Below are positions 1,746 to 32,838 of a stretch of DNA of 36,243 nucleotides, in pieces. A program made the position numbers and the translations under genes. Under the pieces are notes generated by a model that saw only the letters and a list, made by a program, of their open reading frames with translations, was not told where the DNA came from and did no database searches. This DNA comes from an uncultured Lachnospiraceae bacterium. Lineage in GTDB: Bacteria; Bacillota; Clostridia; Lachnospirales; Lachnospiraceae. Every line of letters begins with the position of its first letter. Position 1 is the stretch's first letter. The DNA is taken from the NCBI GenBank assembly GCA_902793335.1, contig CADBCZ010000031.1:1-36243 (forward strand), given 5' to 3'.

Positions 1746-1774
1746 GTAAAAAATGTAAAATCATATAAAACCTA

Positions 1775-1803
1775 TTGACATAGTATGAATAACATGATAG
1801 TAT
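1775..1803 (+). promoter_or_regulatory. Sigma-A-type promoter of the amino acid transport operon
   Basis: TTGACA (1775-1780) and TAGTAT (1798-1803) are separated by 17 bases. A start near 1810 gives a 5' leader of about 250 nt before the first structural gene. That leader holds the leader peptide and attenuator. Confidence 0.7.
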
Positions 1804-1858
1804 TACGACCTGTAAGGAACAAACGTCATACAACAATGAAGAAAGGAGATATGACAAG

Positions 1859-1963
1859 ATGAGGACTATATATTTTTTAATGTGCTGCAATATGTGTCGA
1901 ATGCTAAACTCCCGGGCAGAAGAAATGGTCGGATGTAGGCGTGCTTGTCATGCATCCATCTGA
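1859..1963 (+). CDS. Cys/Met-rich leader peptide (34 aa), putative attenuator sensor
   Basis: The ATG at 1859 has AGGAG (1844-1848) ten bases upstream. The frame runs 34 codons to TGA at 1961-1963. Cys codons are 9, 10, 13, 26 and 30; Met codons are 1, 8, 12, 15 and 23, so nearly a third of the peptide is sulfur amino acids. The dense cluster, residues 8-15 (MCCNMCRM), lies just before the 5' strand of a 10-bp hairpin at 1909-1918. A ribosome waiting on the Cys codons would leave that strand free. A ribosome moving on to the stop would cover it. This is the layout of a classical leader peptide. Function is inferred from layout and codon content; I know no named family. An overlapping ATG at 1851 has only two bases after AGGAG and stops after three codons. 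Confidence 0.75.
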   Translation: MRTIYFLMCCNMCRMLNSRAEEMVGCRRACHASI

Positions 1964-2028
1964 AATGATTTGTAGAACCGAGTCATTATAGAGACCATTT
2001 GCCCGGGAGAAAACTCGGGCTATTTTAT
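1909..2028 (+). promoter_or_regulatory. Transcription attenuator with competing antiterminator and terminator
   Basis: CTCCCGGGCA (1909-1918) is perfectly complementary to TGCCCGGGAG (2000-2009). The enclosed part adds ATGGTC/GACCAT (1925-1930/1993-1998) and two smaller hairpins: GGATGT/GCATCC, and AATGA (1964-1968) with TCATT (1983-1987). The same 3' strand can instead pair with CTCGGGC (2014-2020) across an AAAA loop with a two-base bulge. That forms a hairpin followed by TATTTTATT, a terminator. The two structures exclude each other. The 5' strand lies inside the leader-peptide frame, so translation can choose between them. Predicted logic: Cys shortage, ribosome stalls, the large stem forms, read-through. 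It fits no riboswitch class I know. Confidence 0.7.
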
Positions 2029-2061: not shown

Positions 2062-3765
2062 ATGAGAAAAACATTTATTAAAAAAATCGTGGCAAGTATT
2101 CTTGCAACAACTTTAGGAATAGGAGCTTTGACAGGATGCGGCTCAGCTAGTGCAAAGCCAAACGGTCAGGCAGACACAGCTGAAAGTACAAAAGAGGAAA
2201 CTGCAGATAACAACGAAAACGTAGTTTACAGAACTTTAGATGAGATCAAGGAAGACGGAACAATTAATATCGGAGTTTTCTCAGACAAGAACCCATTTGG
2301 TTATGTAGATGAAAACGGAGATTATCAGGGATATGATGTTTACTTTGCAGAGAGAATCGGTAAGGATCTTGGAGTTAAGATCAATTATGTTTCTACTGAG
2401 GCGGCAAGCAGAGTTGAGTATCTTGAAACAGGTAAGGTTGATATAGTACTTGCCAATTTCACAGTAACAGATGAGAGAGCAGAGAAAGTAGATTTCGCTC
2501 TTCCTTATATGAATGTAGCACTCGGTGTTGTGTCACCGGAGGATAAAGTGATCGAAGATCTTGAGCAGATTGGAGCAGACGATCAGGTGATTGTTATTTC
2601 AGGAACCACAGCTGAGACATATCTTGAGGAAAATTATCCTGATATCAAGCTTCAGAAATTTGATACTTATGCAACAGCTAAGACATCTTTTGAAAACGGA
2701 ACTGGAGTTGCATGGGCTAATGATAATACAGAGGTTATTGCATACGCACTTGAAAATGAGGGTTATAAGGTAGGTATTCCTTCACTTGGAAGTCAGGATA
2801 CAATCGCTCCTGCAGTTTCAAAGGGTAACAGCACATTACTTGACTGGATCAATGATGAGATCAAGACACTCGGTGAAGAGAACTTCTTCCATGCGGATTA
2901 TGAAGCAACACTTCTTGATACTTACGGTAAAGACTATGAAGATACTCTTGTAGTAGAGGGTGGTGTAACAGGTAATGAGGATGCAGCAAAAGAATCAACA
3001 GATTCTTCAGAACTTGATATTGTACCTGGTAATGGTGAAACAATCAAAATCGCAGCTTCAGCTACACCTCATGCAGAGATATTAGCACAGGCAGCAGGAA
3101 TTTTAGAAGGATACGGATATAAGCTTGACGTTGTAGAATTTGATGATTATGTTCAGCCTAATCTTGTAGTAGAGTCAGACGAATTTGATGCAAACTATTT
3201 CCAGCATATTCCATATCTTAACAGCTTTAACGAGGAGCAGGGAACACATCTTGTAAATGCAGGTGGAATTCATTATGAGCCATTCGGAATTTATCCGGGA
3301 ACAAAGAAGAGCTTAGAAGATATTGAGAAAGGTGATTCAATCGCCGTACCTAACGATACTACTAATGAGGCAAGAGCACTTCTTCTTCTTCAGGATAACG
3401 GACTTCTTAAGTTAAAGGATGGTGCAGGAATTGAGGCTACTGTAAATGATATTGTAGAAAATCCTTATGAGATTGAATTTGTAGAGCTTGAGGCTGCACA
3501 GGTTGCAAGAGTAGTAAATGAGGTTGCATTTGTTGTATTAAATGGTAACTATGCTTTAGAGGCAGGTTATTCAGTTGGAAAAGATTCAATTGCATATGAG
3601 TCAAGTGATTCAATCGCTGCACAGACATATGTAAATATTATTGCTGTAAAAGAAGGCAATGAGAACAGCGATAAGATCAAGGCATTGGTTTCAGTACTTA
3701 GATCAGCAGAAATTAAGAAGTTTATCGAAGATACTTATGATGGAGCAGTTGTATTTTTTGAGTAA
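2062..3765 (+). CDS. Fused dual solute-binding lipoprotein (cysteine-type SBP_bac_3 + MetQ/NlpA)
   Basis: The product has 567 residues with a lipoprotein signal and lipobox LTGC (Cys26). Residues about 66-299 are a family 3 amino acid binding protein. They strongly recall Campylobacter CjaA (cysteine binder), with 'IGVFSDKNPFGYVDENG', 'ANFTVTDERAEKVDFALPYM' and 'DTIAPAVSKGN'. After a Ser/Glu/Asp-rich linker (about 300-326), residues 327-567 are a complete NlpA/MetQ-type methionine binding domain ('IKIAASATPHAEIL', 'PNLVVESDEFDANYFQH', 'FGIYPG'). Each half normally exists as its own protein of about 260-280 residues. Only the first has a signal peptide, so one lipid anchor carries both receptors. 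The ribosome binding site is AGGAG before 2062. The genes behind it supply one transporter for each half. Substrates are inferred from family resemblance. Confidence 0.88.
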   Translation: MRKTFIKKIVASILATTLGIGALTGCGSASAKPNGQADTAESTKEETADNNENVVYRTLDEIKEDGTINIGVFSDKNPFGYVDENGDYQGYDVYFAERIGKDLGVKINYVSTEAASRVEYLETGKVDIVLANFTVTDERAEKVDFALPYMNVALGVVSPEDKVIEDLEQIGADDQVIVISGTTAETYLEENYPDIKLQKFDTYATAKTSFENGTGVAWANDNTEVIAYALENEGYKVGIPSLGSQDTIAPAVSKGNSTLLDWINDEIKTLGEENFFHADYEATLLDTYGKDYEDTLVVEGGVTGNEDAAKESTDSSELDIVPGNGETIKIAASATPHAEILAQAAGILEGYGYKLDVVEFDDYVQPNLVVESDEFDANYFQHIPYLNSFNEEQGTHLVNAGGIHYEPFGIYPGTKKSLEDIEKGDSIAVPNDTTNEARALLLLQDNGLLKLKDGAGIEATVNDIVENPYEIEFVELEAAQVARVVNEVAFVVLNGNYALEAGYSVGKDSIAYESSDSIAAQTYVNIIAVKEGNENSDKIKALVSVLRSAEIKKFIEDTYDGAVVFFE

Positions 3766-3826: not shown

Positions 3827-4840
3827 ATGAGTGAAATAGAGATTAAAAATCTTACAAAAGAATTTAATATAAAAGATATCACTGTCAAAGCGCTTGACAA
3901 TATCAACCTTTCTATTGATAAGGGCGATATATTTGGAATCATTGGAATGTCAGGTGCAGGAAAGAGTACCTTGGTAAGATCCATTAATTTTCTTGAAAAA
4001 CCTACTAATGGTCAGGTGCTTATTGATGGCGTTGATCTTGCTTCGTTAAGTGAAAAAGAGCTTAGAAAGAAGCGCGGTGAGATTGGAATGATCTTTCAGG
4101 GTTTCAATCTGTTAGAACAAAAAAGTGTTTTGGATAATGTCTGCTTCCCGCTTGAATTAGCTGGAGAAAAAAGAAAAGTGGCAAGAAAGAAAGCGATAGA
4201 ACTCTTAAAGACAGTGAATCTTGAGGAGAAAGCAAAAGCGTACCCTTCACAGCTGTCGGGTGGCCAGAAACAGAGAGTCGCCATAGCAAGGGCGCTTGCC
4301 ACTAATCCCAAAATTCTTCTTTGTGATGAGGCTACGAGTGCACTCGATCCTCAGACAACAGAATCGATTTTAACTCTTTTGAAAGAGATTAATGAAAACC
4401 TCAATATTACAATAGTTGTGATCACTCATCAAATGTCAGTTGTGACAAGAATCTGTAAAAGAGTGGCAATAGTTGATAATGGAGTATTGGTCGAGGAAGG
4501 CGTAGTAGAAGATATATTTAATAATCCTAAGACAGATGCAGCGAAAGAGTTGATATTTGACAAGAAGATTCGTTTTTCACCGGTAGAAACACTTCACGAA
4601 GATAAAAAGATTCGTATTGTGTTTGAGGAAAATTCCGCTTATGAACCCGTGATCGCCAATCTGATTCTTAAAATTGGTACACCGGTTAATATTTTAAAAG
4701 CTAACACTAAGAATGTAGGTGGGAAGGCAGTAGGAGAAATGATACTCGGTCTTCCTGATGGAGAGGAAATTCAGAATGAGATTATAGACAGTTTGAAAGA
4801 GAGAGGATTATCGGTTGCGGAGGTGAGAGAGGATGTTTGA
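3827..4840 (+). CDS. metN: Methionine-type ABC transporter ATPase (MetN) with NIL domain
   Basis: 337 residues. Walker A is GMSGAGKST (40-48), the signature is LSGGQKQR near 143, and Walker B is 'ILLCDEATSALD'. The C-terminal NIL domain (about 262-335) is the ligand-sensing domain by which MetN proteins are inhibited by internal methionine. This domain separates MetN from other amino acid ATPases. The gene follows the fused binding protein by 61 bases and overlaps the permease by 8 bases, so the two are probably translationally coupled. It should power import of methionine delivered by the NlpA half of the lipoprotein. Confidence 0.9.
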   Translation: MSEIEIKNLTKEFNIKDITVKALDNINLSIDKGDIFGIIGMSGAGKSTLVRSINFLEKPTNGQVLIDGVDLASLSEKELRKKRGEIGMIFQGFNLLEQKSVLDNVCFPLELAGEKRKVARKKAIELLKTVNLEEKAKAYPSQLSGGQKQRVAIARALATNPKILLCDEATSALDPQTTESILTLLKEINENLNITIVVITHQMSVVTRICKRVAIVDNGVLVEEGVVEDIFNNPKTDAAKELIFDKKIRFSPVETLHEDKKIRIVFEENSAYEPVIANLILKIGTPVNILKANTKNVGGKAVGEMILGLPDGEEIQNEIIDSLKERGLSVAEVREDV

Positions 4841-5495
4841 TAGTAAAGTTATAGAGATGATACTTGTAGGTGTCAAAGATACTTTGTATATGACTTTGTT
4901 TTCAACCGCTTTCGGATATCTTTTCGGACTTCCTTTTGGTATTATTTTAAATGTGACCCGAAAAGAAGGCTTAAAACCCAATAGGGTAATATACGGAATA
5001 GGAGATTTTATCTGTAATATTATAAGAAGTATTCCTTTTTTGATTTTGTTGATTCTGCTTATACCGTTTACACGTCTTGTAGTTGGTCAAAGTTATGGGT
5101 CAACGGCAACTATAGTGCCTCTGGTAATTTGTGCTGCACCATACATAGCAAGAGTGGTGGAATCATCATTAAATGAAGTTGATGCAGGAGTTATAGAGGC
5201 GGCAAAAGCGATGGGTGCAAGTAATTTACAGATTATATTTAAAGTGCTGCTGGTAGAGGCAAGGGTTTCGCTTTTTACAGGGGCGACCATTACAACGGGC
5301 CTTTTGCTGGGATATTCTGCAATGTCAGGTACCGTCGGTGGCGGTGGGCTTGGTGATATAGCTGTAAGATACGGATATTACAGATGGCAGACGGATATTA
5401 TGTTTATTACGGTTATCCTTCTTATAGTAATATTCCAGATTATTCAGAATCTGGGTACAAAATGGGCATCACATATTGATCACAGGAAGCGCTAA
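4833..5495 (+). CDS. metI: Methionine-type ABC transporter permease (MetI)
   Basis: 220 residues with about five membrane segments and the EAA loop 'AKAMGASNLQIIFKVLLVEA', the contact site for the ATPase. Size and motif fit MetI/YaeE permeases ('GYSAMSGTVGGGGLGDIAVRYGY' is the typical MetI C-terminal segment, shown here only as landmark residues G-S-A-M-S-G and G-G-G-L-G). It starts inside the end of the MetN gene and ends ten bases before the next permease. It would form a MetI2-MetN2 importer. Confidence 0.9.
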   Translation: MFDSKVIEMILVGVKDTLYMTLFSTAFGYLFGLPFGIILNVTRKEGLKPNRVIYGIGDFICNIIRSIPFLILLILLIPFTRLVVGQSYGSTATIVPLVICAAPYIARVVESSLNEVDAGVIEAAKAMGASNLQIIFKVLLVEARVSLFTGATITTGLLLGYSAMSGTVGGGGLGDIAVRYGYYRWQTDIMFITVILLIVIFQIIQNLGTKWASHIDHRKR

Positions 5496-5505
5496 GGAGT
5501 ATGTA

Positions 5506-6150
5506 ATGGATGTTGAGGTAATTAAGTCTTATCTTCCCAATTTTATCAAAGCTTTTTTCTTAACGATTAAGATAGGCTGGATTGGAATTGCTCTGGCATT
5601 TATTATCGGAATCGTGTGTGCATTTATATTATATTTTAAGGTTCCGGTATTTAGTGGATTTGTTAAAGGTTATGTGGAATTGTTCCGAAATACTCCACTT
5701 TTAGTTCAGCTGTTTTTCATATATTACGGTCTGCCCGCAATTGGCGTAAAAATACCGGCAGAGCTTTGCGGTATATTGGGACTGGGCTTGCTTGGCGGAA
5801 GTTATATGGCTGAAAGCTTTAGAAGCGGTTTAGAAGCGGTACCTGTAATACAGACTGAAAGTGCACTTTCCCTGGGAATGACCAGAAGACAGTTGTTTAT
5901 TTATGTTATACTTCCACAGGCATTTTCCATTAGCGTTCCGGCGATTGTTGCCAACATTATTTTTCTGCTGAAAGAGACAAGTGTTTTTTCTGCAATAAGC
6001 TTGATGGATCTGATGTTTACAGCCAAAGATTATATAGGTCTTTACTATAATACATTTGAAAGTTTGTTTTTGCTTGTCATATTCTATATTGTTATGCTGC
6101 TTCCGGTTTCCTTTGCGGGAAGCATTATAGAAAGGAAATGTAGCTTTTAA
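5506..6150 (+). CDS. Polar amino acid ABC transporter permease, first subunit (HisM/TcyB-like)
   Basis: 214 residues from the ATG at 5506 (AGGAG at 5495-5499); the longer TTG reading at 5476 overlaps metI and is unlikely. It has membrane segments typical of the HisMQ family, 'ELFRNTPLLVQLFF' in the first cytoplasmic region, and the EAA loop 'ESALSLGMTRRQLFIYVILP'. Members work as pairs of related permeases with a GlnQ-type ATPase to take up polar amino acids, including cystine. The partner lies 69 bases downstream. The natural ligand receptor is the CjaA-like half of the fused lipoprotein, since no other binding protein is encoded here. Confidence 0.87.
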   Translation: MDVEVIKSYLPNFIKAFFLTIKIGWIGIALAFIIGIVCAFILYFKVPVFSGFVKGYVELFRNTPLLVQLFFIYYGLPAIGVKIPAELCGILGLGLLGGSYMAESFRSGLEAVPVIQTESALSLGMTRRQLFIYVILPQAFSISVPAIVANIIFLLKETSVFSAISLMDLMFTAKDYIGLYYNTFESLFLLVIFYIVMLLPVSFAGSIIERKCSF

Positions 6151-6219
6151 GGTAGAATCTATCATTCACTGCGAGATTTGTGGAAGAATGTATATTTGCG
6201 ATGTTTGGAGACTGATAAT

Positions 6220-6888
6220 ATGGGAATAGAAGTAATATTTAAAGGAAGAAACCTGATAAGATTGATGGAAGGGCTTTTGGTGGCGATGAAGATAAGTCTT
6301 TTATCTGTTGTTATAAGTATTGTGTTAGGCATTATTCTTGGAATGCTTATGACTTTGAAAAAGCCGGGTATTACCTTTATTTCCAGAATCTATCTTGAGA
6401 TAGTAAGAATTATGCCGCAGATGGTTCTTTTATTTATAGTATATTTTGGATTTGCAAAAATGACGGGGATTAATCTTTCTGCGGAAGCATCGGCAGTTAT
6501 TGTTTTTTCATTTTGGGGAACGGCTGAGATGGCAGATTTGGTAAGAGGATGTATGGCAAGTATTCCGAAGATTCAGTATGAAAGCAGCACAGCTCTGGGC
6601 TTTACCCGTTTACAAACTTATGTCCATGTAATTATACCGCAGATAATAAGAAGACTTATTCCATTATCGATAAATCTGATAACAAGAATGATTAAGACGA
6701 CAAGTCTTGTTATGATGATTGGTATTGTTGAGGTGTTAAAGGTTGGCCAACAGATTATAGAGGCTAACAGAAAGAGTGCACCAAATGCTGCTTTTGGTGT
6801 GTTTGCGGTCATTTTTTTACTATATTTTCTGGCTTGCTGGCCAATCAGTCATTTTTCTAAATATCTAGAAAAAAAATGGGAGAATTAA
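6220..6888 (+). CDS. Polar amino acid ABC transporter permease, second subunit
   Basis: 222 residues from the ATG at 6220, preceded by TTTGGAG at nine bases; a TTG at 6178 would add 14 residues without a good site. Same HisMQ fold as the gene before it but clearly diverged: 'EIVRIMPQMVLLFIVYFGF' and EAA loop 'ESSTALGFTRLQTYVHVIIP'. The two permeases would form a heterodimer. The stop is one base from the start of the ATPase gene, so the three are tightly coupled. Confidence 0.87.
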   Translation: MGIEVIFKGRNLIRLMEGLLVAMKISLLSVVISIVLGIILGMLMTLKKPGITFISRIYLEIVRIMPQMVLLFIVYFGFAKMTGINLSAEASAVIVFSFWGTAEMADLVRGCMASIPKIQYESSTALGFTRLQTYVHVIIPQIIRRLIPLSINLITRMIKTTSLVMMIGIVEVLKVGQQIIEANRKSAPNAAFGVFAVIFLLYFLACWPISHFSKYLEKKWEN

Positions 6889-6889
6889 T

Positions 6890-7630
6890 ATGGATGAGAT
6901 ATTAAAGATAGAACATCTGAATAAAAAATTTGACGACCTGACTGTATTAGAGGATATAAGCCTTGAGGTGAAAAAAGGTGAAGTGGTTGTTGTTGTTGGA
7001 CCATCAGGTTGTGGAAAGAGTACATTTTTGAGATGTATCAATGGATTGGAAACTATTCAGGATGGAAAGATACTGTTAGATGGAGAAACTGTCAATCCTC
7101 CTTTGGGTAATATCAAAAATTACAGAGAAAAGATAGGTATGGTTTTTCAGAGTTATGACTTGTTTCCGCACAAGACAATTATAGAAAATCTGATGCTGGC
7201 ACCGTTAAAGGTACAGAAAAGAAATAAAGTGGAAGTGAGAAAAGAGGCGGAGGAATTACTTGAAAAGGTTGGATTATCTTCTAAGAAAGATAATTATCCG
7301 CGACAGTTATCGGGTGGTCAAAAGCAGAGAGTAGCAATAGTCAGGGCACTTATTATGCATCCGGAGGTGTTATTATTTGACGAGGTTACTGCAGCGTTGG
7401 ATCCGGAAATGGTCAGGGAAGTCTTGGATGTTATTATGGAGCTTGCAAGACAAAATCGTACGATGCTCATAGTTACTCATGAGATGGCGTTTGCCAAAGC
7501 AGTAGCTGACAGGGTAATATTCATGGACGGAGGGGTGATTGTTGAAGACACAGATCCCAAAAGCTTTTTTGAGAATCCGGCTACTGAAAGAGCAAAAAAA
7601 TTTCTTAGTACTTTTGAATATAATGAGTGA
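6890..7630 (+). CDS. Polar amino acid ABC transporter ATPase (GlnQ/TcyC-like)
   Basis: 246 residues: Walker A GPSGCGKST (37-45), 'LSGGQKQRVAIVRAL' signature, Walker B 'VLLFDEVTAALDPE', and the switch His in 'LIVTHEM'. It has no NIL domain, which separates it from the MetN-type ATPase earlier in the operon. The unit thus holds two different ATPases for two permease sets but one shared binding lipoprotein. It closes the operon and is followed directly by a strong terminator. Confidence 0.9.
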   Translation: MDEILKIEHLNKKFDDLTVLEDISLEVKKGEVVVVVGPSGCGKSTFLRCINGLETIQDGKILLDGETVNPPLGNIKNYREKIGMVFQSYDLFPHKTIIENLMLAPLKVQKRNKVEVRKEAEELLEKVGLSSKKDNYPRQLSGGQKQRVAIVRALIMHPEVLLFDEVTAALDPEMVREVLDVIMELARQNRTMLIVTHEMAFAKAVADRVIFMDGGVIVEDTDPKSFFENPATERAKKFLSTFEYNE

Positions 7631-22832: not shown

Positions 22833-24551
22833 ATGCGATACGATTTTTTGAAGGATTTTCCAAAAAGAATGAAGAATGTGGGACTATATGCCACACTTAT
22901 TCAGAATATTGTTGATAAGACGAGCTGGAATAAATACTATGTCACGAAAAATGATGAGCGTATTAATATTGTCTTTTCAGTTCTTCTTTTTATTATGGAA
23001 AAATCTTTAAAAGATGATGTGTGTACTTTGGACGATGTAGCAGTATATATTGATGAGATAAACAGCACTGATTATCAAAAACCGTTATCCTTTGACGAGT
23101 GCAGAGAGCTGGCAGACTTTATAGTCAACTCCGTCTTGTCAAATGATGGTAAGATAATGAGTTTTGACGGATATGATTATGAGCAGAAGGCATATCATAT
23201 TATCAATATACGTTACCTTATGAACAAAGTAGTATATATTGACGGAGATGTAAGAAGGACATCTTACACTTTGACGGAGGAGGGATATAATCTTTTACTG
23301 TCAACTCTTGAGGTAGAGGCTAACCTTAGATTTACCATTCAGGAGATGATATTCCGACTCCATCTTGAAAAACAGAGCTATGATAAGGCGGCTCAGGATA
23401 TCAGGGAATTGTTTAATCAGATAAGAATACAGCTTAGAAAGATTGATGCAGCCATGATCAGTATACGTCGTAATGCCCTAAACTTTTCAATAACTCAGTA
23501 CGAAGAGATCACCAATGAAAATATGGATATGGTGTATGATACAAAACAGAAATTTGAGAATTACAGGGATCTGGTTGAACAGAGGAAGGCTGAACTTTTA
23601 GAGATTCATTTTAATGTAAAGAAATTAAGCCCGGAAGATGAAGAGAAACTTGCCAACTTAAAGGTGATAAGCGGTTATCTTGGAAGAACGATAGATGAAC
23701 ACCAGAAGATATTGACAAGTCATTTTAATCTTAAGGATCTTTATGCAAAGGAAATGGACAGTCTTTCAGTGGTGTCTATGGTAAAGCGATTCTCTTTAAG
23801 AAATGAGTTGTATGATAAGATACTTGACGATCCTAATGCATTAGGTAATATGTCTAATCTGCTGTCGCCTTTGTTTAATCAGGATGTTGAAGGAGTATAT
23901 AATCCTGCAAGTGCAGCGGGATTACAGCGCACATCGAGAAAGAAAAAGGAAGAAGACAGTACTGAGGATATAGAGTTTGATGAGGAATTATGGGAACGGG
24001 AAAAACAGGCGCGTCTTAAGGAAAGGCGTAAGAAATATGAGGGCTGTCTGACATTTATATTAAGTCGCGCAGTAGAGCATGGAAGTGTAATGCTTTCGGA
24101 AATTCGGGATGAAATTGTTTCTGGTACAGAAAATAATAACATGGCAAGGAATGTTAGTGATGACGATATTGGAGAAAAAACATTAAAAAAAGAAGTTCAA
24201 AAAAATGTGGACGAGGATCAGCCTGCAAAAATAGATGTATTAATCCCTACCATAGATATATTCAAGGAAATAATGGTTGAGCTGATTAAGGGAAGAACCT
24301 TAGATCTTAATGAACTTAAGAGAGAACGACGAGAGAGCTTTGAGGATGATTCAGAGGTGTTTGAGGTTAACCGTATGGTACTTGACATTATGGAGAGTCT
24401 TGATCCTGAAGAAAATGTAAAACACATTGTTATTTCGAAATATGGGGATTCAAAGGTATCATTTGGCAACATTATTGATGAATATGGAAGACTTAGAGAA
24501 ATTAGGTGTTCGGATGTTAAGATTGAGGTTTTTGAGGGATTTGTGGATTGA
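22833..24551 (+). CDS. jetA: Wadjet kleisin-like subunit JetA
   Basis: 572 residues behind AAAGGAG. Winged-helix-like N-terminus ('YDFLKDFPKRMKNVGLYATL'), a long helical centre (about 180-330), a charged low-complexity linker (about 365-410, Lys/Glu/Asp), and a C-terminal domain of about 80 residues. This fits JetA (DUF5716-like), the kleisin that bridges the two JetC heads, as MukF does for MukB. Its place between JetD and the DUF4194 protein secures the call. A second charged, Asn/Asp-rich linker lies near 430-465. Confidence 0.8.
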   Translation: MRYDFLKDFPKRMKNVGLYATLIQNIVDKTSWNKYYVTKNDERINIVFSVLLFIMEKSLKDDVCTLDDVAVYIDEINSTDYQKPLSFDECRELADFIVNSVLSNDGKIMSFDGYDYEQKAYHIINIRYLMNKVVYIDGDVRRTSYTLTEEGYNLLLSTLEVEANLRFTIQEMIFRLHLEKQSYDKAAQDIRELFNQIRIQLRKIDAAMISIRRNALNFSITQYEEITNENMDMVYDTKQKFENYRDLVEQRKAELLEIHFNVKKLSPEDEEKLANLKVISGYLGRTIDEHQKILTSHFNLKDLYAKEMDSLSVVSMVKRFSLRNELYDKILDDPNALGNMSNLLSPLFNQDVEGVYNPASAAGLQRTSRKKKEEDSTEDIEFDEELWEREKQARLKERRKKYEGCLTFILSRAVEHGSVMLSEIRDEIVSGTENNNMARNVSDDDIGEKTLKKEVQKNVDEDQPAKIDVLIPTIDIFKEIMVELIKGRTLDLNELKRERRESFEDDSEVFEVNRMVLDIMESLDPEENVKHIVISKYGDSKVSFGNIIDEYGRLREIRCSDVKIEVFEGFVD

Positions 24552-24605
24552 ATAGATACGATTGCTTTTGATGAATTTGTGTATTGAACAGTTACGTAGT
24601 TTTTG
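24537..24605 (+). repeat. Imperfect tandem repeat at the end of jetA
   Basis: The last codons of jetA and what follows (24537-24570) are repeated imperfectly at 24573-24605; both units read roughly G-A-TTTGTG-ATTGAA, then a T-rich end. It fills the 73-base jetA-jetB gap and looks like a slippage duplication. Confidence 0.5.
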
Positions 24606-24624
24606 GAGAAAGAGGTAGTTAAAG

Positions 24625-25347
24625 ATGGCATTTGAATATAATGAGATTAAGCGGAGTCAGGAGATATTCTATTATCTATTAAAACATCATGAACTTAGTG
24701 AGGATAAAGAACCGGGATTATATAGGGCATATTTTGAAAAAGAGGATGTTCAGATGCTGGTGAAATCACAGGGCGAAGCGGCTGAATGCAAGATTGAAAG
24801 ATATGGAAATACAATCTATCTCATACCTGATGAAGGTAATAATTACCTTGGATTTTCAAAAAGTCAGTTAAAGAAACAGCTGTTAAAATCTGATGCGACG
24901 GATAAAGATTATTACCTTGCACAGTTTGTTATTCTTACATTGATGATCGAGTTCTATGACGGACAGGGAAGCAGTGCCAAGACGAGAGATTATATTCGCG
25001 TGGGCGAGCTGCTTAACAGCGTGTCGGAACGCTTGAGGGAAGGAGCGGATCGTATGGATGAAGAGGAACAGGATAGGGCAGGCATTGCATTTACTGATAT
25101 GTTAGAAGCATATGAGTCGTTGAAATCCGATGACACGGGAAGAAAGACCAAGACCACAAAGGAAGGTTTTATACATAGCATTCTTACATTTCTTGAAAAT
25201 CAGGGACTTATAGAATATGTTGTGGTCGATGAGATGGTTCTGACCACTAAGAAGATGGATAATTTCATGGATTGGAATATATTAAATGAGAATAATTTCG
25301 ACAGGGTATTATCAGTGTTGGGGGTGAGAGAAAGTGGCGAAAATTAA
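24625..25347 (+). CDS. jetB: Wadjet KITE-like subunit JetB (DUF4194)
   Basis: 240 residues. The pattern 'LYRAYFEKEDVQMLVKSQGE', 'IERYGNTIYLIPDEGNNYLGF' and the C-terminal 'FLENQGLIEYVVVDE' fits the DUF4194/MukE-like KITE proteins that dimerise on the kleisin. The site is GGAGAAAGAGG upstream of 24625. It overlaps jetC by 14 bases, indicating coupled translation of the motor subunits. Confidence 0.85.
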   Translation: MAFEYNEIKRSQEIFYYLLKHHELSEDKEPGLYRAYFEKEDVQMLVKSQGEAAECKIERYGNTIYLIPDEGNNYLGFSKSQLKKQLLKSDATDKDYYLAQFVILTLMIEFYDGQGSSAKTRDYIRVGELLNSVSERLREGADRMDEEEQDRAGIAFTDMLEAYESLKSDDTGRKTKTTKEGFIHSILTFLENQGLIEYVVVDEMVLTTKKMDNFMDWNILNENNFDRVLSVLGVRESGEN

Positions 25348-28300
25348 TGCGGTAAGACTTATCAATATCAATTACAACAACAACTCAATAAGAATAAATG
25401 ATGAGACTATGCATTTTAACGGTGACAGTACCCTTGTTGCACTGGCAAATGGTGGGGGTAAGACTGTCCTTGTGCAGATGATGACGGCGCCTTTCGTACA
25501 CAAGCGTTATAGGAATACTACCGACAGAATGTTTGAGAATTTCTTTACTACCAATAAGCCTTCATTTATCCTGATAGAATGGAGCCTTGACGGCGGCATA
25601 GGGAAAATGATGAACGGACTGATGATAAGAAGAAGTCAGAATGATATTGAAGATAGCGGCGACGCTCTTGAGATAACCGGAATAGTCAGTGAATACAACG
25701 GTGCCTGCATGTGGGATATCCATAATCTGCCTGTCGTTGAGAAGACTAAAAAAGAAATGAATCTTAAGGGATATGCAACGTGCCGTCAGATATTTGATGG
25801 TTTTAAGAAGGACAGGGATGCTAAGTTTTTCCACTATGACATGAATAATTCAGGACAGCAGAGACAGTATTTTGACAAGCTCATGGAATATCGTGTCGAC
25901 TATAAGGAATGGGAAGATATCATCAGGAAGATTAACATGAAGGAAGGCGGTCTTGCTGAGCTGTTTTCTGATTGTAAGGATGAGAGAAGCCTTATGGAGA
26001 AATGGTTCCTAGAGTCAATCGAAAAGAAGATTGATAAGGACGGGGGAATGATCCGTGATTTTGAAAGAAATGTGGGTAATTACGTAAGGCAGTATTATGA
26101 AAATGAGGACAAGATCAAGCGACGTGATACCATTGAAAAATTCAAGGAACAGGTCATATATGATGATGAAATGGCAGGAAATAAATCCGTAAAAACCTGT
26201 GCGGAGGAATTTCTTCTAAGGGAAAAAGATAAGAGAAAACAAGAGGGAATTATTGCTGCATTTAGAACGATGATAGAAGAATATCATGACGATACTTCGG
26301 CTCTGCTTTCTAATAAACTTGATGAGATAACTGACCTTAAAAGTAGAATAAATGATATCAGACATGAGAAGATTTCGTATGAGATTTTGCTGCTTTCTAA
26401 AGATAAGGAAAAGTATGAACAGGAATATGAGAAACTTGGCATACAGCTTACAGAGCTTGATGAAAAGATTAATGAAACTGAACTGCTTATTGGGATAATG
26501 GCATGCAGACGAATCTACGATACAAGAGACAGGGAGAAGAAAGAGTATAACGATATAGAGGCGAAACTTAGGGCGTTAAGTGCACAGAATGAGGATAACA
26601 GGGAAAGACGCGAGGAGCTTGGAGCACTTATGTATGCCTTCATAGAAGAGAATATAGATAAGATAAATTCAGAGATTGAAGGTGTAGAGAAGGAAATTGA
26701 TGATATCCTGCATAATATAGAAGATGTTAAGGGCAGGATAGCTGATAATGATAAGAGTATTACTGAGCTTTCTACTGAGAAAGGAAAGTTGGAGGCACTG
26801 GTAGAAACTTATTCAGATAAGGAAAGTACTTATAACAGGGATTATAAGCAGAACCTTTGTAGGAATATCCTTGGAAAATATGATGAGGGCTTATTTGATA
26901 TAGAAAAGGATAAATGTCTTAAGAGTAAGCTTAGTTTGGAAAAGGAAGTTAAGGGGAATAAAGAGAAACGTCACGAGAAGGAAAATGCTCTTAGAAAATA
27001 TGAAAGTGACAGGAATAATATATCTATCAATAAAGTCAAAAATGAAGAGGTCAAGAATAGAGCCTGTGAAGATGTTGCCCGATATGATAAAGAGCTTGAT
27101 GTAAGAAGGAATATGCTCAAATATGTTGAGCTTAACGAAGATAAGTTATTTGACCGTGAACTGATAAGAAACAAGCTTGACGAAAAACTTGAGGAGATCG
27201 ATGTTTCACTTTCCGGGTTAAAGACAACTGCTGCTAAAGAAAAGAAGGAATATGAGGCAATATCACAGGGACGTATATATGAACTTCCGGATAATATGAA
27301 AACTGCCATGGATACATTAGGAATAGCGCAGATTCACGGACTTAACTGGCTTAGGAAGAATGGTAAGAGTGCGGAAGAAAATATTAAGTTGGTGAGAAGG
27401 AATCCATTTATCCCCTATGCACTAATCATGACGGATAATGAGTATGCAAGTCTTAAGAATATGGGCAGTGACATATACAGTTCTCTGCCGGTTCCGATAA
27501 TGCTTCGAAAAGAATTGGAAGAGGGAATATTTAAGGTAAATGATGGAACACTAGAACTTGGTAAAATTCGTTTCTATGTCCGTTTCAATGAGAATCTTCT
27601 TGATGAAAATAAGATGCAGAAAATTCTTGATGATAGGCAGCATGCTATTAAAGATTTAGAGGATAAGATTCAAATAAGAGAAGATGAAAAGCGGGAATAC
27701 AATGACAAGCTTGGAGTACTTAATAATCAGGAAGTGACAGACAAGCTTTATGAAGAAAAACATAATGTAATAAAGCGGTGTGAGGACGAAGAGGAACGAC
27801 TTACAAGGGAATTGGCTTCTTTGGAAAATGCGAAGAAGGAATGTGAGAGTCTGATTGAGGAGCTTAATGGTATCATTCAAAATAATGAGAATGATTTAAA
27901 GATTGAATCCGACAGATATGAGAGTCTTAAAGCTCTTGCACAGGCATATGATAAGTATATTGACAATGTCAGAGACAAAAAACGAATTGAAGCTGACATA
28001 GAAAAGCTTGAAAATTATAATGCAGAGCTTAAATGTGATCTGGACAAATATCAGGCAGAACTTGGAAGAAACCAATCAAAGAAGAATAATCTTACACAGG
28101 AGATGAGGAGTAAGCAAGAGGAATTATCGATATACTTGCGTTATGGAGAGATGGGTAAGGTGATAGAAATAACCGATGATCATCGTAAGAGGAAGGATAA
28201 GTATGAGTCGGAGTACAAGGCTATCACGGAAGAACTTGATAATGATATTAAGAGACTTGAGAGAGATTTTGAAAAGCAGGTGGAACGATTAAGAAATGCT

Positions 28301-29797
28301 GAGAATGATTATAAGATTGCAAAGAAGAAACTTTCTAAGGATACCGGAAGGACATTTGATGACATTGATGACAGTGTGAAAAAATGTGTTTACGACGAGG
28401 ATGAGGATAGCAGGCTATCAGAGGAAAAGAAGGATCTTTCAGCAAAACGTAAAGATGTGGCAAAGAGTCAGAATGAGGCTGATAAGAATCGTTCCCTTAA
28501 AGCACAGAGTATTGAGAATAAGATTTCCGAGATGAAGCGGGAATGTGGCAGGGATGAGCCTGTTGACAGCGAGCTTATCATACCTCGTAATTATGAAGCT
28601 GAGATAAGCGGTCTTTGTTATAATCTTGGTGAAGTGGAAAAGGAAAGAGATACTCTTTCGATGAAAATTCAGGAGCTGTCGGCACTTCTTTCAGGACTTG
28701 CGGAATACAGTGAGTTCAGAGTTTTAGAAGATACAAAGTTAGAAGTTGATGTGACATCCATGAACAAAACTGAACTTGACAGACTGAAGGGAAGCCTTGT
28801 CAGGGATTACAGTGAGATGAGTGAGAAGATAGAAAAAGCGAGAAATGTTCTTGAGAAACGTATCAGGGATGTTCTTGATATCACTGATTTTCACGATGAA
28901 TATTATAAGAAGCATCTTGATTCAATGCTAAGACTGTCAGATACACCATCAGAGGTGTTAAGGCAGATCGAGCTTACCATAAGTGTCTTTGATAACCAGA
29001 TGAAGAAGATAGAGGTGGATCTGGCGCTTGTTGAGAAAGAACGCAACAACCTTACCGGTGAGTTGATGGATTATGTCAAGGCTGTCCACAGAGATGTATC
29101 TAAGATAGATGACAATTCTACGATAACGGTGAGAGAACGTTCCATAAAGATGTTGGATATCAAGACTCCTGACTGGCAGGAGAATGAAGAGCTCTATAAT
29201 ATTCGCATGCGTGAATTCGTAGATGGAATTACTCTTAAAGGTGTTGAGTTATACAAGAAGGGTGAAAATGCTGCCGAATATTTTGGTACCCAGCTTAATA
29301 CTAAGAATCTCTATGACATAATCGTGGGACTTGGCAACGTTTCAATAAGACTTTATAAGATCGAAGAGCAGAGAGAATACCCTATTGCCTGGTCTGATGT
29401 TGCAGCTAATTCCGGTGGCGAGGGATTTCTGTCGTCATTCGTTATACTTTCAAGCCTTCTTACATATATAAGAAAAGACGATACAGATCTTTTTGCAGAG
29501 AAAAATGAGAGCAAGGTCATGATAATGGATAATCCGTTCGGTGTAACGTACTCAGAACATCTGCTAAAGCCTCTTATGGAGATGGCAAAGAAGAACAATA
29601 CACAGCTTATTTGTCTGTCGGGACTTGGTGGCGACTCCATATACGGAAGATTTGACAATATATACATATTAAACCGCGTTGTCGCAAGTCTTAAGAGTGG
29701 ACAGCAGTTCTTAAGAATGGAGCATTACAGAGGAACTGAACCTGAAACGATCATCGCTTCACAGTTTGAGGTTGGGGAGCAGTTGACGTTGTTTTGA
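25334..29797 (+). CDS. jetC: Wadjet SMC-like ATPase JetC
   Basis: 1487 residues from a GTG at 25334, behind GGGGGTGAGAG inside the end of jetB. Walker A is NGGGKT (39-44). Very long coiled-coil arms (about 250-650 and 780-1290), rich in Lys and Glu, enclose a hinge-like globular part near 650-760 ('HGLNWLRKNGKSAEENIKLV', 'NPFIPYALIMTD'). The C-terminal head has signature NSGGEGF (1359-1365) and Walker B ending in MIMDNPFG (Asp1399). The residue after Asp is Asn, not the Glu of most SMC proteins. JetC extrudes DNA loops with JetA and JetB and presents circular DNA to JetD. Confidence 0.9.
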   Translation: MAKINAVRLININYNNNSIRINDETMHFNGDSTLVALANGGGKTVLVQMMTAPFVHKRYRNTTDRMFENFFTTNKPSFILIEWSLDGGIGKMMNGLMIRRSQNDIEDSGDALEITGIVSEYNGACMWDIHNLPVVEKTKKEMNLKGYATCRQIFDGFKKDRDAKFFHYDMNNSGQQRQYFDKLMEYRVDYKEWEDIIRKINMKEGGLAELFSDCKDERSLMEKWFLESIEKKIDKDGGMIRDFERNVGNYVRQYYENEDKIKRRDTIEKFKEQVIYDDEMAGNKSVKTCAEEFLLREKDKRKQEGIIAAFRTMIEEYHDDTSALLSNKLDEITDLKSRINDIRHEKISYEILLLSKDKEKYEQEYEKLGIQLTELDEKINETELLIGIMACRRIYDTRDREKKEYNDIEAKLRALSAQNEDNRERREELGALMYAFIEENIDKINSEIEGVEKEIDDILHNIEDVKGRIADNDKSITELSTEKGKLEALVETYSDKESTYNRDYKQNLCRNILGKYDEGLFDIEKDKCLKSKLSLEKEVKGNKEKRHEKENALRKYESDRNNISINKVKNEEVKNRACEDVARYDKELDVRRNMLKYVELNEDKLFDRELIRNKLDEKLEEIDVSLSGLKTTAAKEKKEYEAISQGRIYELPDNMKTAMDTLGIAQIHGLNWLRKNGKSAEENIKLVRRNPFIPYALIMTDNEYASLKNMGSDIYSSLPVPIMLRKELEEGIFKVNDGTLELGKIRFYVRFNENLLDENKMQKILDDRQHAIKDLEDKIQIREDEKREYNDKLGVLNNQEVTDKLYEEKHNVIKRCEDEEERLTRELASLENAKKECESLIEELNGIIQNNENDLKIESDRYESLKALAQAYDKYIDNVRDKKRIEADIEKLENYNAELKCDLDKYQAELGRNQSKKNNLTQEMRSKQEELSIYLRYGEMGKVIEITDDHRKRKDKYESEYKAITEELDNDIKRLERDFEKQVERLRNAENDYKIAKKKLSKDTGRTFDDIDDSVKKCVYDEDEDSRLSEEKKDLSAKRKDVAKSQNEADKNRSLKAQSIENKISEMKRECGRDEPVDSELIIPRNYEAEISGLCYNLGEVEKERDTLSMKIQELSALLSGLAEYSEFRVLEDTKLEVDVTSMNKTELDRLKGSLVRDYSEMSEKIEKARNVLEKRIRDVLDITDFHDEYYKKHLDSMLRLSDTPSEVLRQIELTISVFDNQMKKIEVDLALVEKERNNLTGELMDYVKAVHRDVSKIDDNSTITVRERSIKMLDIKTPDWQENEELYNIRMREFVDGITLKGVELYKKGENAAEYFGTQLNTKNLYDIIVGLGNVSIRLYKIEEQREYPIAWSDVAANSGGEGFLSSFVILSSLLTYIRKDDTDLFAEKNESKVMIMDNPFGVTYSEHLLKPLMEMAKKNNTQLICLSGLGGDSIYGRFDNIYILNRVVASLKSGQQFLRMEHYRGTEPETIIASQFEVGEQLTLF

Positions 29798-29880
29798 GGG
29801 TAAGCAGTGCCTTATGAGCTTTATAAGGGTTTGACATTTACCACAAGCCGGATAGGCGTTTTGCCGAAAGAAAATGTCCA

Positions 29881-29909
29881 AAGGTCCTGCGTGAGCAGGA
29901 CCTTTTTGA
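29881..29909 (+). terminator. Terminator of the Wadjet operon
   Basis: AAGGTCCTGC (29881-29890) pairs perfectly with GCAGGACCTT (29895-29904) across GTGA, followed by T. Upstream, 29810-29878 holds two more hairpins: CCTTAT/ATAAGG (29810-29815/29823-29828) and GACATTT/AAATGTC (29833-29839/29872-29878, enclosing a small GC stem). The 3' end is therefore unusually structured. Confidence 0.9.
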
Positions 29910-32266: not shown

Positions 32267-32838
32267 ATTTTAGTTGATGGGTAGTTGATGAGTTAATAAC
32301 ATTTTTATCAGTCTGTTTGTGGAACTCCTTTAATTTCGGGGCTTAGACGAGTTTTATAAGAGAAAATTTAGTTGATGGGTAGTTGATGAAATGCTATTTA
32401 CGAAATGCATTGAGAGATAAAAATCGAGAGACTGGATGGAAATCAAGAAAATGTTGGAATAGGTATGTTGAGAAAGGATATTAACCAATGAAGGGCGAGA
32501 GGTTCGTCCTGGTCCCTGCAAGGCAGATAGGGGAGATAGTGATTCTCTTTTTGAATAGGGTGTCATGAACACAATTATGTGGCTCATTTGTATACTTCCG
32601 GAGGGGAATACATCTCTATGTATACGGGCGATGAAAGGCTGGAAGGACCGATTGTTTGGTTATGTAGGTGTGATGTCACACTTGTGATTAGCAAAATTTC
32701 TAAATAAAAAAGTAATATTTGACAAGAAATACCGACTGAGTTAGAATGAAAATGTATTCGAGAAAATTATATCAGCGCGTAGTTTGTGGTCATATTATAA
32801 CTTCTTAGCTTTTTTAGGGCTAGTTTTTACGATATTAC
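32267..32838 (+). other. Non-coding stretch between the AlbA_2 gene and the helicase
   Basis: No convincing gene. It holds 9-bp iterons (see the repeat entry), short frames such as 32 codons from 32387 and 40 codons from 32566 without family resemblance, and a 14-base palindrome GTGTGATGTCACAC (32668-32681). Base composition around 32480-32660 is richer in G than the surroundings and may be the worn remnant of a gene. Confidence 0.5.
32269..32389 (+). repeat. 23-bp direct repeat made of TAGTTGATG iterons
   Basis: The same 23 bases lie at 32269-32291 and 32367-32389. Each unit contains TAGTTGATG twice, two bases apart, so the 9-mer occurs four times in one orientation (32271, 32282, 32369, 32380). 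The first unit begins three bases after the stop of the AlbA_2 gene. Confidence 0.85.

Follow-up and report, generated by a model that had tools for sequence, protein, structure and literature searches.

The region between positions 1859 and 2028 of the window, the whole stretch of 36,243 nucleotides from an uncultured Lachnospiraceae bacterium that was analyzed, very probably controls transcription by ribosome-mediated attenuation, with charged Cys-tRNA as the signal that is read. Attenuation, with Cys codons placed right before the 5′ arm of an antiterminator, is strongly supported by sequence comparison, because the leader frame is conserved, the stem covaries and sulfur genes lie downstream. 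As predicted from these sequences, the element is a new and widespread form of a known kind of attenuator, next to the cysteine leaders known in Actinobacteria and Rhodobacterales and the his and ilv leaders known in Firmicutes. The features of the locus are listed in Table 1.

Table 1. Features of the leader and the downstream operon in the window.
Feature	Position	Strand	Basis or remark
Dyad ACCTATT-GACAT-AGTATGA over the -35 box; putative repressor operator	1770..1788	+	
-35 box TTGACA	1775-1780	+	
-10-like box TAGTAT	1798-1803	+	
Shine–Dalgarno of the leader frame, AAAGGAG	1842..1848	+	read from sequence
Leader peptide frame, 34 codons and stop	1859..1963	+	ATG 1859, TGA 1961-1963
Sensor codons Cys9, Cys10, Cys13	1883..1897	+	Cys13 is the final Cys codon preceding the stem
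Conserved element UGYCGAAUGY	1895..1904	+	Arg codon CGA in 75/81 covariance-model leaders
Antiterminator stem P1, 5′ arm, encoding Ser-Arg-Ala	1909..1918	+	pairing, covariation
P1b (extension of P1), 5′ arm AATGGTC	1924..1930	+	partner 1993-1999; folding
Hairpin P2, in the P1 loop and inside the leader frame	1931..1957	+	folding
P1b, 3′ arm GACCATT	1993..1999	+	folding
P1, 3′ arm TGCCCGGGAG, common to the terminator	2000..2009	+	folding, covariation
Intrinsic terminator: stem 2001-2020 and U-rich tail	2001..2028	+	terminator search
Fused binding protein SBP_bac_3 (cystine-type by context) and NlpA/MetQ	2062..3765	+	domain scan
Rest of operon	3827..7630	+	ORFs and domain scan
MetN-like ABC ATPase with NIL domain	3827-4840	+	
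MetI-like permease	4833-5495	+	
Two further permeases	5506-6150, 6178-6888	+	
Second ABC ATPase	6890-7630	+	

A preliminary description of the locus had reported a 34-codon frame with a good ribosome binding site and five Cys and five Met codons, and all of these are present. The encoded peptide, read directly from the window, is MRTIYFLMCCNMCRMLNSRAEEMVGCRRACHASI (34 residues), with Cys at residues 9, 10, 13, 26 and 30 and Met at residues 1, 8, 12, 15 and 23. The Cys run that was said to stand directly before the 5′ strand of the stem (residues 8–15) is indeed found there, as Cys9, Cys10 and Cys13 together with Met8, Met12 and Met15. Three of these eight residues are Cys, compared with 54 of the 5873 codons (0.9%) in 12 ORFs of the window. 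The 10-bp stem was located as described as well: CTCCCGGGCA (1909–1918) is perfectly complementary to TGCCCGGGAG (2000–2009), and the terminator stem at 2001–2020 reuses this 3′ arm, with a U-run that is weak in the window (TATTTTATTG). The leader fold beats all 200 of 200 dinucleotide shuffles (z −4.2; z −5.1 for the segment 1889–2030). A chance origin of the leader is untenable, because it recurs in relatives.

When 60 relatives were searched at the DNA level, two carriers besides the window were found (L002 and L003), and a protein search of 115 genomes with the fused binding protein, combined with inspection of upstream regions, contributed L037 and L040. In each of the five leaders, a short frame reads ...C-R-M... 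directly before the stem. In L003, a G-C pair of the stem is replaced by A-U (CTCCCGGACA with TGTCCGGGA), and the same paired replacement is found at a different position in L037 (CTCCCAGGCA with TGCCTGGGAG). The comparison of leaders that had been proposed earlier was carried out in this way, and both a conserved Cys-rich frame and compensatory stem changes were seen in relatives. A covariance model built on the five leaders (R1) gave 58 matches in 46 of the 397 genomes of the window's family, the Lachnospiraceae; its matches L119 and L121 (E about 0.05) were discarded as false by eye. A second, MAFFT-based covariance model (R2) was run on wider groups and matched 21 of 295 genomes from the order, 13 of 341 from the class and 1 of 199 from the phylum, each count including the window's own genome. 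Within the genus, 3 of 26 genomes carry the element according to R2, and it is present as a single copy in the genome of the window. In 12 leader entries, the near-palindromic stem causes additional weak R2 matches on the other strand (E 0.0004 to 0.008), so that the weakest genome matches, with E > 1e-4 (G640, G584 and G548 in the order, G913 in the class), may be false.

A pattern scan of named genomes gave at least 119 matching stretches at no fewer than 80 loci. Carriers among the matches listed are Lachnospiraceae, Ruminococcaceae, Saccharofermentans and Anaerovibrio (Negativicutes), with single matches in MAGs labelled Christensenella and Eggerthellaceae, placed by label alone; a Shine–Dalgarno sequence was looked for in the Eggerthellaceae-labelled match (L229) and was not found. 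Cultured carriers include Lachnospiraceae AC2029 and XBB2008 and Anaerovibrio lipolyticus DSM 3074. At the pattern-scan loci, the stem is paired at 9 or all 10 of its positions in 79 of 81 matches when GU is allowed, and the remaining two hit an N (L180) or a contig end (L227). In L180, two leader matches that share their peptide start are separated by 127 bases and stand next to N runs, possibly as an assembly repeat. No leader was recognized by eye in the 420 nt upstream of the gene in L036, a relative with the fused binding protein, or at the closest MetY in the genome of the window (L278), and R2 had no match in the available stretches of L041, L060, L062 and L063, four loci at which the cystine-type binding protein is a separate one. 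A pattern consisting of the stem only, found in 50 of 299 genomes (53 places among the matches listed), was rejected as mostly chance. Of 30 loci fetched for this pattern, a leader was present only in the copy of the window, and only G027 and G161 among the other listed places coincide with later model matches.

After removal of exact duplicates and N-runs, 162 sequences left 151 non-redundant leaders, of which 81 were derived from the covariance models and 70 from the pattern. L119 and L121 as well as the repeats L132, L133 and L149 had been left out beforehand, L277 is absent and close relatives are still in the set. For the 70 pattern-found copies, the final Cys codon, CGAATG and the 5′ arm are fixed by construction, and the 81 others come from models trained on sequences of the same type.

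The 151 leaders share a common plan: a Shine–Dalgarno sequence, a short frame with ...M-C-C-R-M-x-x-S-R/Q-A..., an antiterminator and a terminator, with the 10-bp antiterminator beginning 14 nt downstream from the first base of the final Cys codon. As in trp- and his-type attenuators, the frame looks translatable and holds a run of codons for the sensed amino acid, here presumably Cys. Among the 81 covariance-model leaders, 76 have a Shine–Dalgarno-like score of at least 4 and in 76 frame 0 is open over p−15 to p+42, where p is the final Cys codon, vs 34 and 31 for the other frames. Cys occupies the final sensor codon in 68 of them (TGT 61, TGC 7); in 5 of the 13 others it is Met, and two of the 81 have no Cys at all before the stem. 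Residues before the stem are Cys for 17% and Met for 13% in this set, the Cys value being set against the 0.9% in the window's genes. Met is found two codons past the final Cys in 79 of these 81 leaders and in 149 of all 151, and is frequent at codons −2 (44) and −3 (39) of the 81 as well. The leaders have a median length of 38 codons. The frame runs on through P1 and P2, and in 144 leaders its stop lies a median of 30 nt upstream of the 3′ arm. Cys recurs in this stretch past the sensor (253 of 2414 codons), and it is the last codon in 46 of the 151 leaders. The CGA codon of UGYCGAAUGY is probably conserved as RNA too, because it is near-constant as the Arg codon (75 of 81) although only 22 of the 284 Arg codons in the 12 window ORFs are CGA.

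Pairing of P1 was evaluated in a sequence-only alignment of 57 leaders, i.e., 56 of the 58 R1 hits and L002. In total 96.1% of the P1 cells are paired, vs 91.8% when the 3′ letters are dealt among the sequences and at most 56.7% with slid partners. Two-sided changes occur in 29 cells at 5 of the 10 pairs, compared with 6.0 cells in the shuffles; the number of changed pairs is less striking, with 43 of 500 shuffles reaching 5. This count supersedes one on 48 leaders (97.9% P1 pairing) that omitted 11 of the 58 hits, some of them poorly paired. Strict Watson–Crick pairing at all 10 positions is found for 47 of 81 leaders when the arm of the same leader is used, vs 342 of 5246 combinations (6.5%) with a differing arm of another leader. 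Pairing at 9 or more positions with GU allowed is unspecific, since the arms of other leaders achieve this in 313 of 405 trials; 8 of the 81 leaders pair at fewer than 9. For P1b, which is partly misaligned, 73.9% of the cells are paired and two-sided changes occur at 4 of 4 pairs (48 leaders). The span of P1 varies from 48 to 144 nt. A terminator that is built on the 3′ arm of P1 and followed by a U-rich tail was detected in 138 of 142 leaders vs 210 of 1420 shuffles. Antiterminator and terminator have this arm in common and are mutually exclusive, which again corresponds to the trp and his type.

The genes behind the leader in the window, encoding the SBP_bac_3 and NlpA fusion, a MetN-like ATPase, permeases and a second ABC ATPase, are consistent with the sulfur amino acid transport operon that had been proposed. 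The first downstream ORF could be called for 145 of the 151 leaders, and in 134 of these it is of a type involved in sulfur amino acid synthesis or uptake. Cys/Met-metabolism PLP enzymes account for 77 of the 145, 70 of them with the LHVG of the O-acetylhomoserine sulfhydrylase type. The further first genes are 26 cystine-type binding proteins, 22 NlpA/MetQ proteins, 3 MetN-like proteins, 3 polar amino acid permeases, 2 CysK and 1 MetK. The 11 that fall outside the sulfur types include the dehydratase of L103 and the linked proteins of L096, L097 and L111 that are described below, and three of the 11 (L077, L176 and L221) are probably miscalled frames. Gene types were assigned by single-linkage BLAST clusters and by Pfam and NCBIfam scans of the first 300 residues of representatives; most NCBIfam scores are under the curated cut-off, those of cysK and metK being over it.

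Some of the genes near the leaders stand out. A lipoprotein with both SBP_bac_3 and NlpA/MetQ, as encoded at 2062–3765, has matches covering both domains in 6 of 115 genomes. In L103, the leader lies upstream of a likely (2S)-3-sulfopropanediol dehydratase, a sulfonate enzyme (599–1498; first 300 residues scanned); this link, if true, would couple sulfonate use with cysteine supply. The leaders of L096, L097 and L111 precede three linked proteins, the scanned one of which has a GST-C domain and no NCBIfam name, and by eye lipoprotein-like genes come next in L096 and L111. An Rrf2-like gene was seen by eye after one leader (L076).

When Cys-tRNA is scarce, the ribosome would halt on the Cys run, and its front edge would not quite reach position 1909. 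P1 (1909–1918/2000–2009) could then form with P2 and P3 inside, which would prevent the terminator and allow transcription of the operon. When Cys is ample, the ribosome would pass the P1 5′ arm and P2, the local terminator (2001–2020) would fold first and transcription would stop. The ON state was modelled by equilibrium folding of 30 leaders, i.e., the window and 29 drawn from leaders with a good P1, with a ribosome footprint blocked that extends from 15 bases upstream to 12 bases downstream of the first base of the A-site codon. In this model, P1 has a median probability of 0.96 when the A site holds the final Cys codon. The value falls to 0.78 one codon further, to 0.27 at the Met two codons on and to 0.00 three codons on, where the terminator takes over. 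Stalling at the sensor codons thus keeps the antiterminator arm free in the modelled leaders, as it does in trp- and his-type attenuators. In the model, the switch point sits at the Cys codon and the near-invariant Met lies on the wrong side of it. This geometry, as calculated, is the strongest hint toward the mechanism.

The OFF state does not follow from the same calculation, because P1 is favoured with a ribosome at the stop codon (median probability 0.82) or with no ribosome (0.93), the window having 0.99 in both cases. In the trp attenuator, the OFF state is brought about by a ribosome parked at the leader stop, where it covers the antiterminator arm. Here, the stop codon lies a median of 50.5 nt beyond the P1 5′ arm (144 leaders), and a ribosome at this position leaves the arm uncovered. 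The preliminary description had the leader working exactly as in trp and his attenuators, and on this point it does not hold. Presumably, a moving ribosome between the two arms delays P1 while the terminator folds earlier.

Trp and his attenuators also have a pause or protector hairpin formed by segments 1 and 2. A complement of UGYCGAAUGY with a score of at least 6 is found in the 5′ part of P2 in 42% of the 144 leaders vs 14.5% of dinucleotide shuffles. Such complements lie at offsets 16–18 in 43 of 60 cases, and their frequency by gene group ranges from 23 to 50%, with 23% in the NlpA group. In this candidate pairing, the element itself hardly varies among the leaders. A wider reading, possible but on balance doubtful, is that of a Clostridia-wide cysteine regulon, in which one attenuator with a new OFF logic via UGYCGAAUGY and termination as the default would be joined with a promoter repressor into a two-step control of sulfur uptake and synthesis. 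UGYCGAAUGY, free after passage of the ribosome or when there is none, would in that case mimic the 3′ strand of P2 and pair with the 5′ strand, so that the junction needed by P1 is undone.

In addition to attenuation, firing of the promoter is probably gated by a repressor bound at a dyad over the −35 box. The dyad, with consensus ACCTATT-GACAT-AGTAGGT, is present in most of the leader family and is likely a repressor site. Among the 147 leaders with sufficient upstream sequence, 128 agree with CCTATTGACATAGTAGG in at least 12 of its 17 positions, vs 4 of 147 shuffled upstream regions, and 19 remain below 12; the window (1771–1787) has one mismatch to CCTATTGACATARTAGG. The −10 box lies at a spacing of 17 nt in 118 of the 123 leaders with a recognizable −10. 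An operator search of the window's own genome, in which a reversed control pattern outnumbers the real operator pattern (35 vs 21), gave no second convincing site; three candidates with two mismatches each (L282–L284) were rejected as not promoter-like by eye.

Such a repressor could be the main control, with the attenuator merely tuning expression. The wide occurrence of the dyad and the regular position of the −10 box speak for this, yet a main repressor leaves the conserved leader unexplained and 19 of the 147 leaders stay under 12/17 for the dyad, which makes it quite improbable. Somewhat better placed, though still unlikely, is the idea that the same attenuator reads methionine, or Cys and Met jointly. 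Met is indeed abundant among the pre-stem residues, above all at codons −2 and −3, and NlpA/MetQ-type proteins occur in the operon of the window as well as among the first downstream genes (22 of 145). However, cystine may be the substrate of some NlpA-type transporters, Cys is encoded at the footprint-compatible codon in 68 of the 81 leaders, and the best conserved Met (codon +2) is the one at which stalling masks P1 in the model. Because stalling at this near-invariant Met would mask the stem and favour the terminator, it cannot be a starvation sensor of the claimed sign, and according to the model a Met codon would have to lie upstream of the Cys run to sense starvation. Of the two shortages first put forward as the signal, that of Cys is backed by conservation, covariation and gene content, whereas that of Met fails for the Met two codons past the Cys run; Met as the sole signal was considered and ranked lower.

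Two other readings do without a ribosome that counts Cys codons. The peptide itself could act, for example as a small protein working in trans or as an arrest peptide whose nascent chain senses free cysteine, in agreement with its conservation beyond Cys (C-C-R-M), which is unusual for a codon-counting leader. Much of this conservation is nevertheless probably conservation of RNA, because the CGA codon is kept in spite of its low share among the Arg codons of the window and Ser-Arg/Gln-Ala is imposed by the stem; moreover, the N-termini of the leaders vary freely. We consider an active peptide highly improbable. A metabolite-binding riboswitch that contains an open frame by accident is scarcely credible: while a folded leader with the unpaired conserved UGYCGAAUGY and a retained CGA codon would suit an aptamer, the conserved bases sit in a frame with a Shine–Dalgarno sequence and a strong enrichment in Cys, and the center of the fold varies in sequence and in length, as the span of P1 illustrates. 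Furthermore, no family of Rfam 15 matches the leader at gathering scores (window and 19 leader loci), and the low-stringency matches, all sub-threshold, were dismissed as noise.

An attenuator that reads charged Cys-tRNA by translation would differ from the systems by which cysteine is known to be controlled in clostridia, i.e., T-boxes, S-boxes and CymR-like repressors (PMC2940859, PMC3828012). In Clostridium perfringens, a Cys T-box and S-boxes control cysK, cysP1/2, ubiG and metK/metT (PMC2940859). Like the leader, these elements act by premature termination, sensing Cys-tRNA or SAM (PMC2940859), but T-boxes bind tRNA directly and without translation. The T-box model (RF00230) has no match on the leader, although it matches elsewhere in the same genome, with 7 hits of which 3 are over the Rfam cut-off. 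The next gene could be named for 6 of these 7 (leuA, aspS, trpE, valS, trpD and pheS), none being a sulfur gene, and SAM-I (RF00162) has no match in the genome. The study on C. perfringens does state that clostridia lacking the T-box may use other mechanisms (PMC2940859). The view that such a leader is unusual in Clostridia agrees with the T-boxes and S-boxes described in this source (PMC2940859), but not with the frequency of the element in rumen and gut Clostridia.

A description of a leader of this type was not found among the open-licence papers listed, and the systems below are likened to it by description. Short ORFs with polycysteine precede cys operons in Actinobacteria (PMC1262725, PMC13236596), the mycobacterial ones being the subject of Canestrari 2020 (cited in PMC13236596 and PMC9094748). 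They resemble the Clostridia leader in that a Cys run in a short upstream frame is followed by sulfur genes and translation senses cysteine (PMC1262725). In the actinobacterial copies as presented there, the Cys codons are close to the stop and Mycobacterium has no conserved terminator hairpin, and the case of M. smegmatis is called translation attenuation (PMC13236596), whereas the Clostridia leader has an intrinsic terminator and a covarying antiterminator. The uORFC-8-2 motif upstream of cysS in Rhodobacterales combines a terminator with tandem Cys codons, which usually occupy positions 14 and 15, and is predicted to work by ribosome-mediated attenuation as well (PMC8632094). Unlike the Clostridia leader, it is described for one gene (cysS) in one alphaproteobacterial order, and its Cys codons are within its first stem (PMC8632094). 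In Firmicutes, leader-peptide transcription attenuation is represented by Rli60 of the Listeria ilv operon (PMC5864092) and by the his leader of hisS/hisZ in bacilli (PMC2965389). Rli60 is joined with the promoter repressor CodY, similar to what is suspected for the Clostridia leader (PMC5864092); both differ from it, as reported in these sources, in amino acid and in being tied to few operons.

If true, one form of cysteine control other than the T-box would be present before MetY-type, cystine transport, NlpA, CysK and MetK genes of many lineages from rumen and gut. Sulfur regulons could then be read from genomes without a cultured host, and the 151 leaders would constitute a natural set for comparing ribosome position, stem and terminator.

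Elsewhere in the window, a drum RNA (29777–29882) and a Clostridiales-3 RNA (32400–32664) are present, both of which are listed by Rfam as sRNAs. The region 22833–29797 encodes an SMC-like protein of 1487 residues which, together with its neighbours, is by eye reminiscent of a condensin-type (JetABCD/Wadjet-like) cluster.
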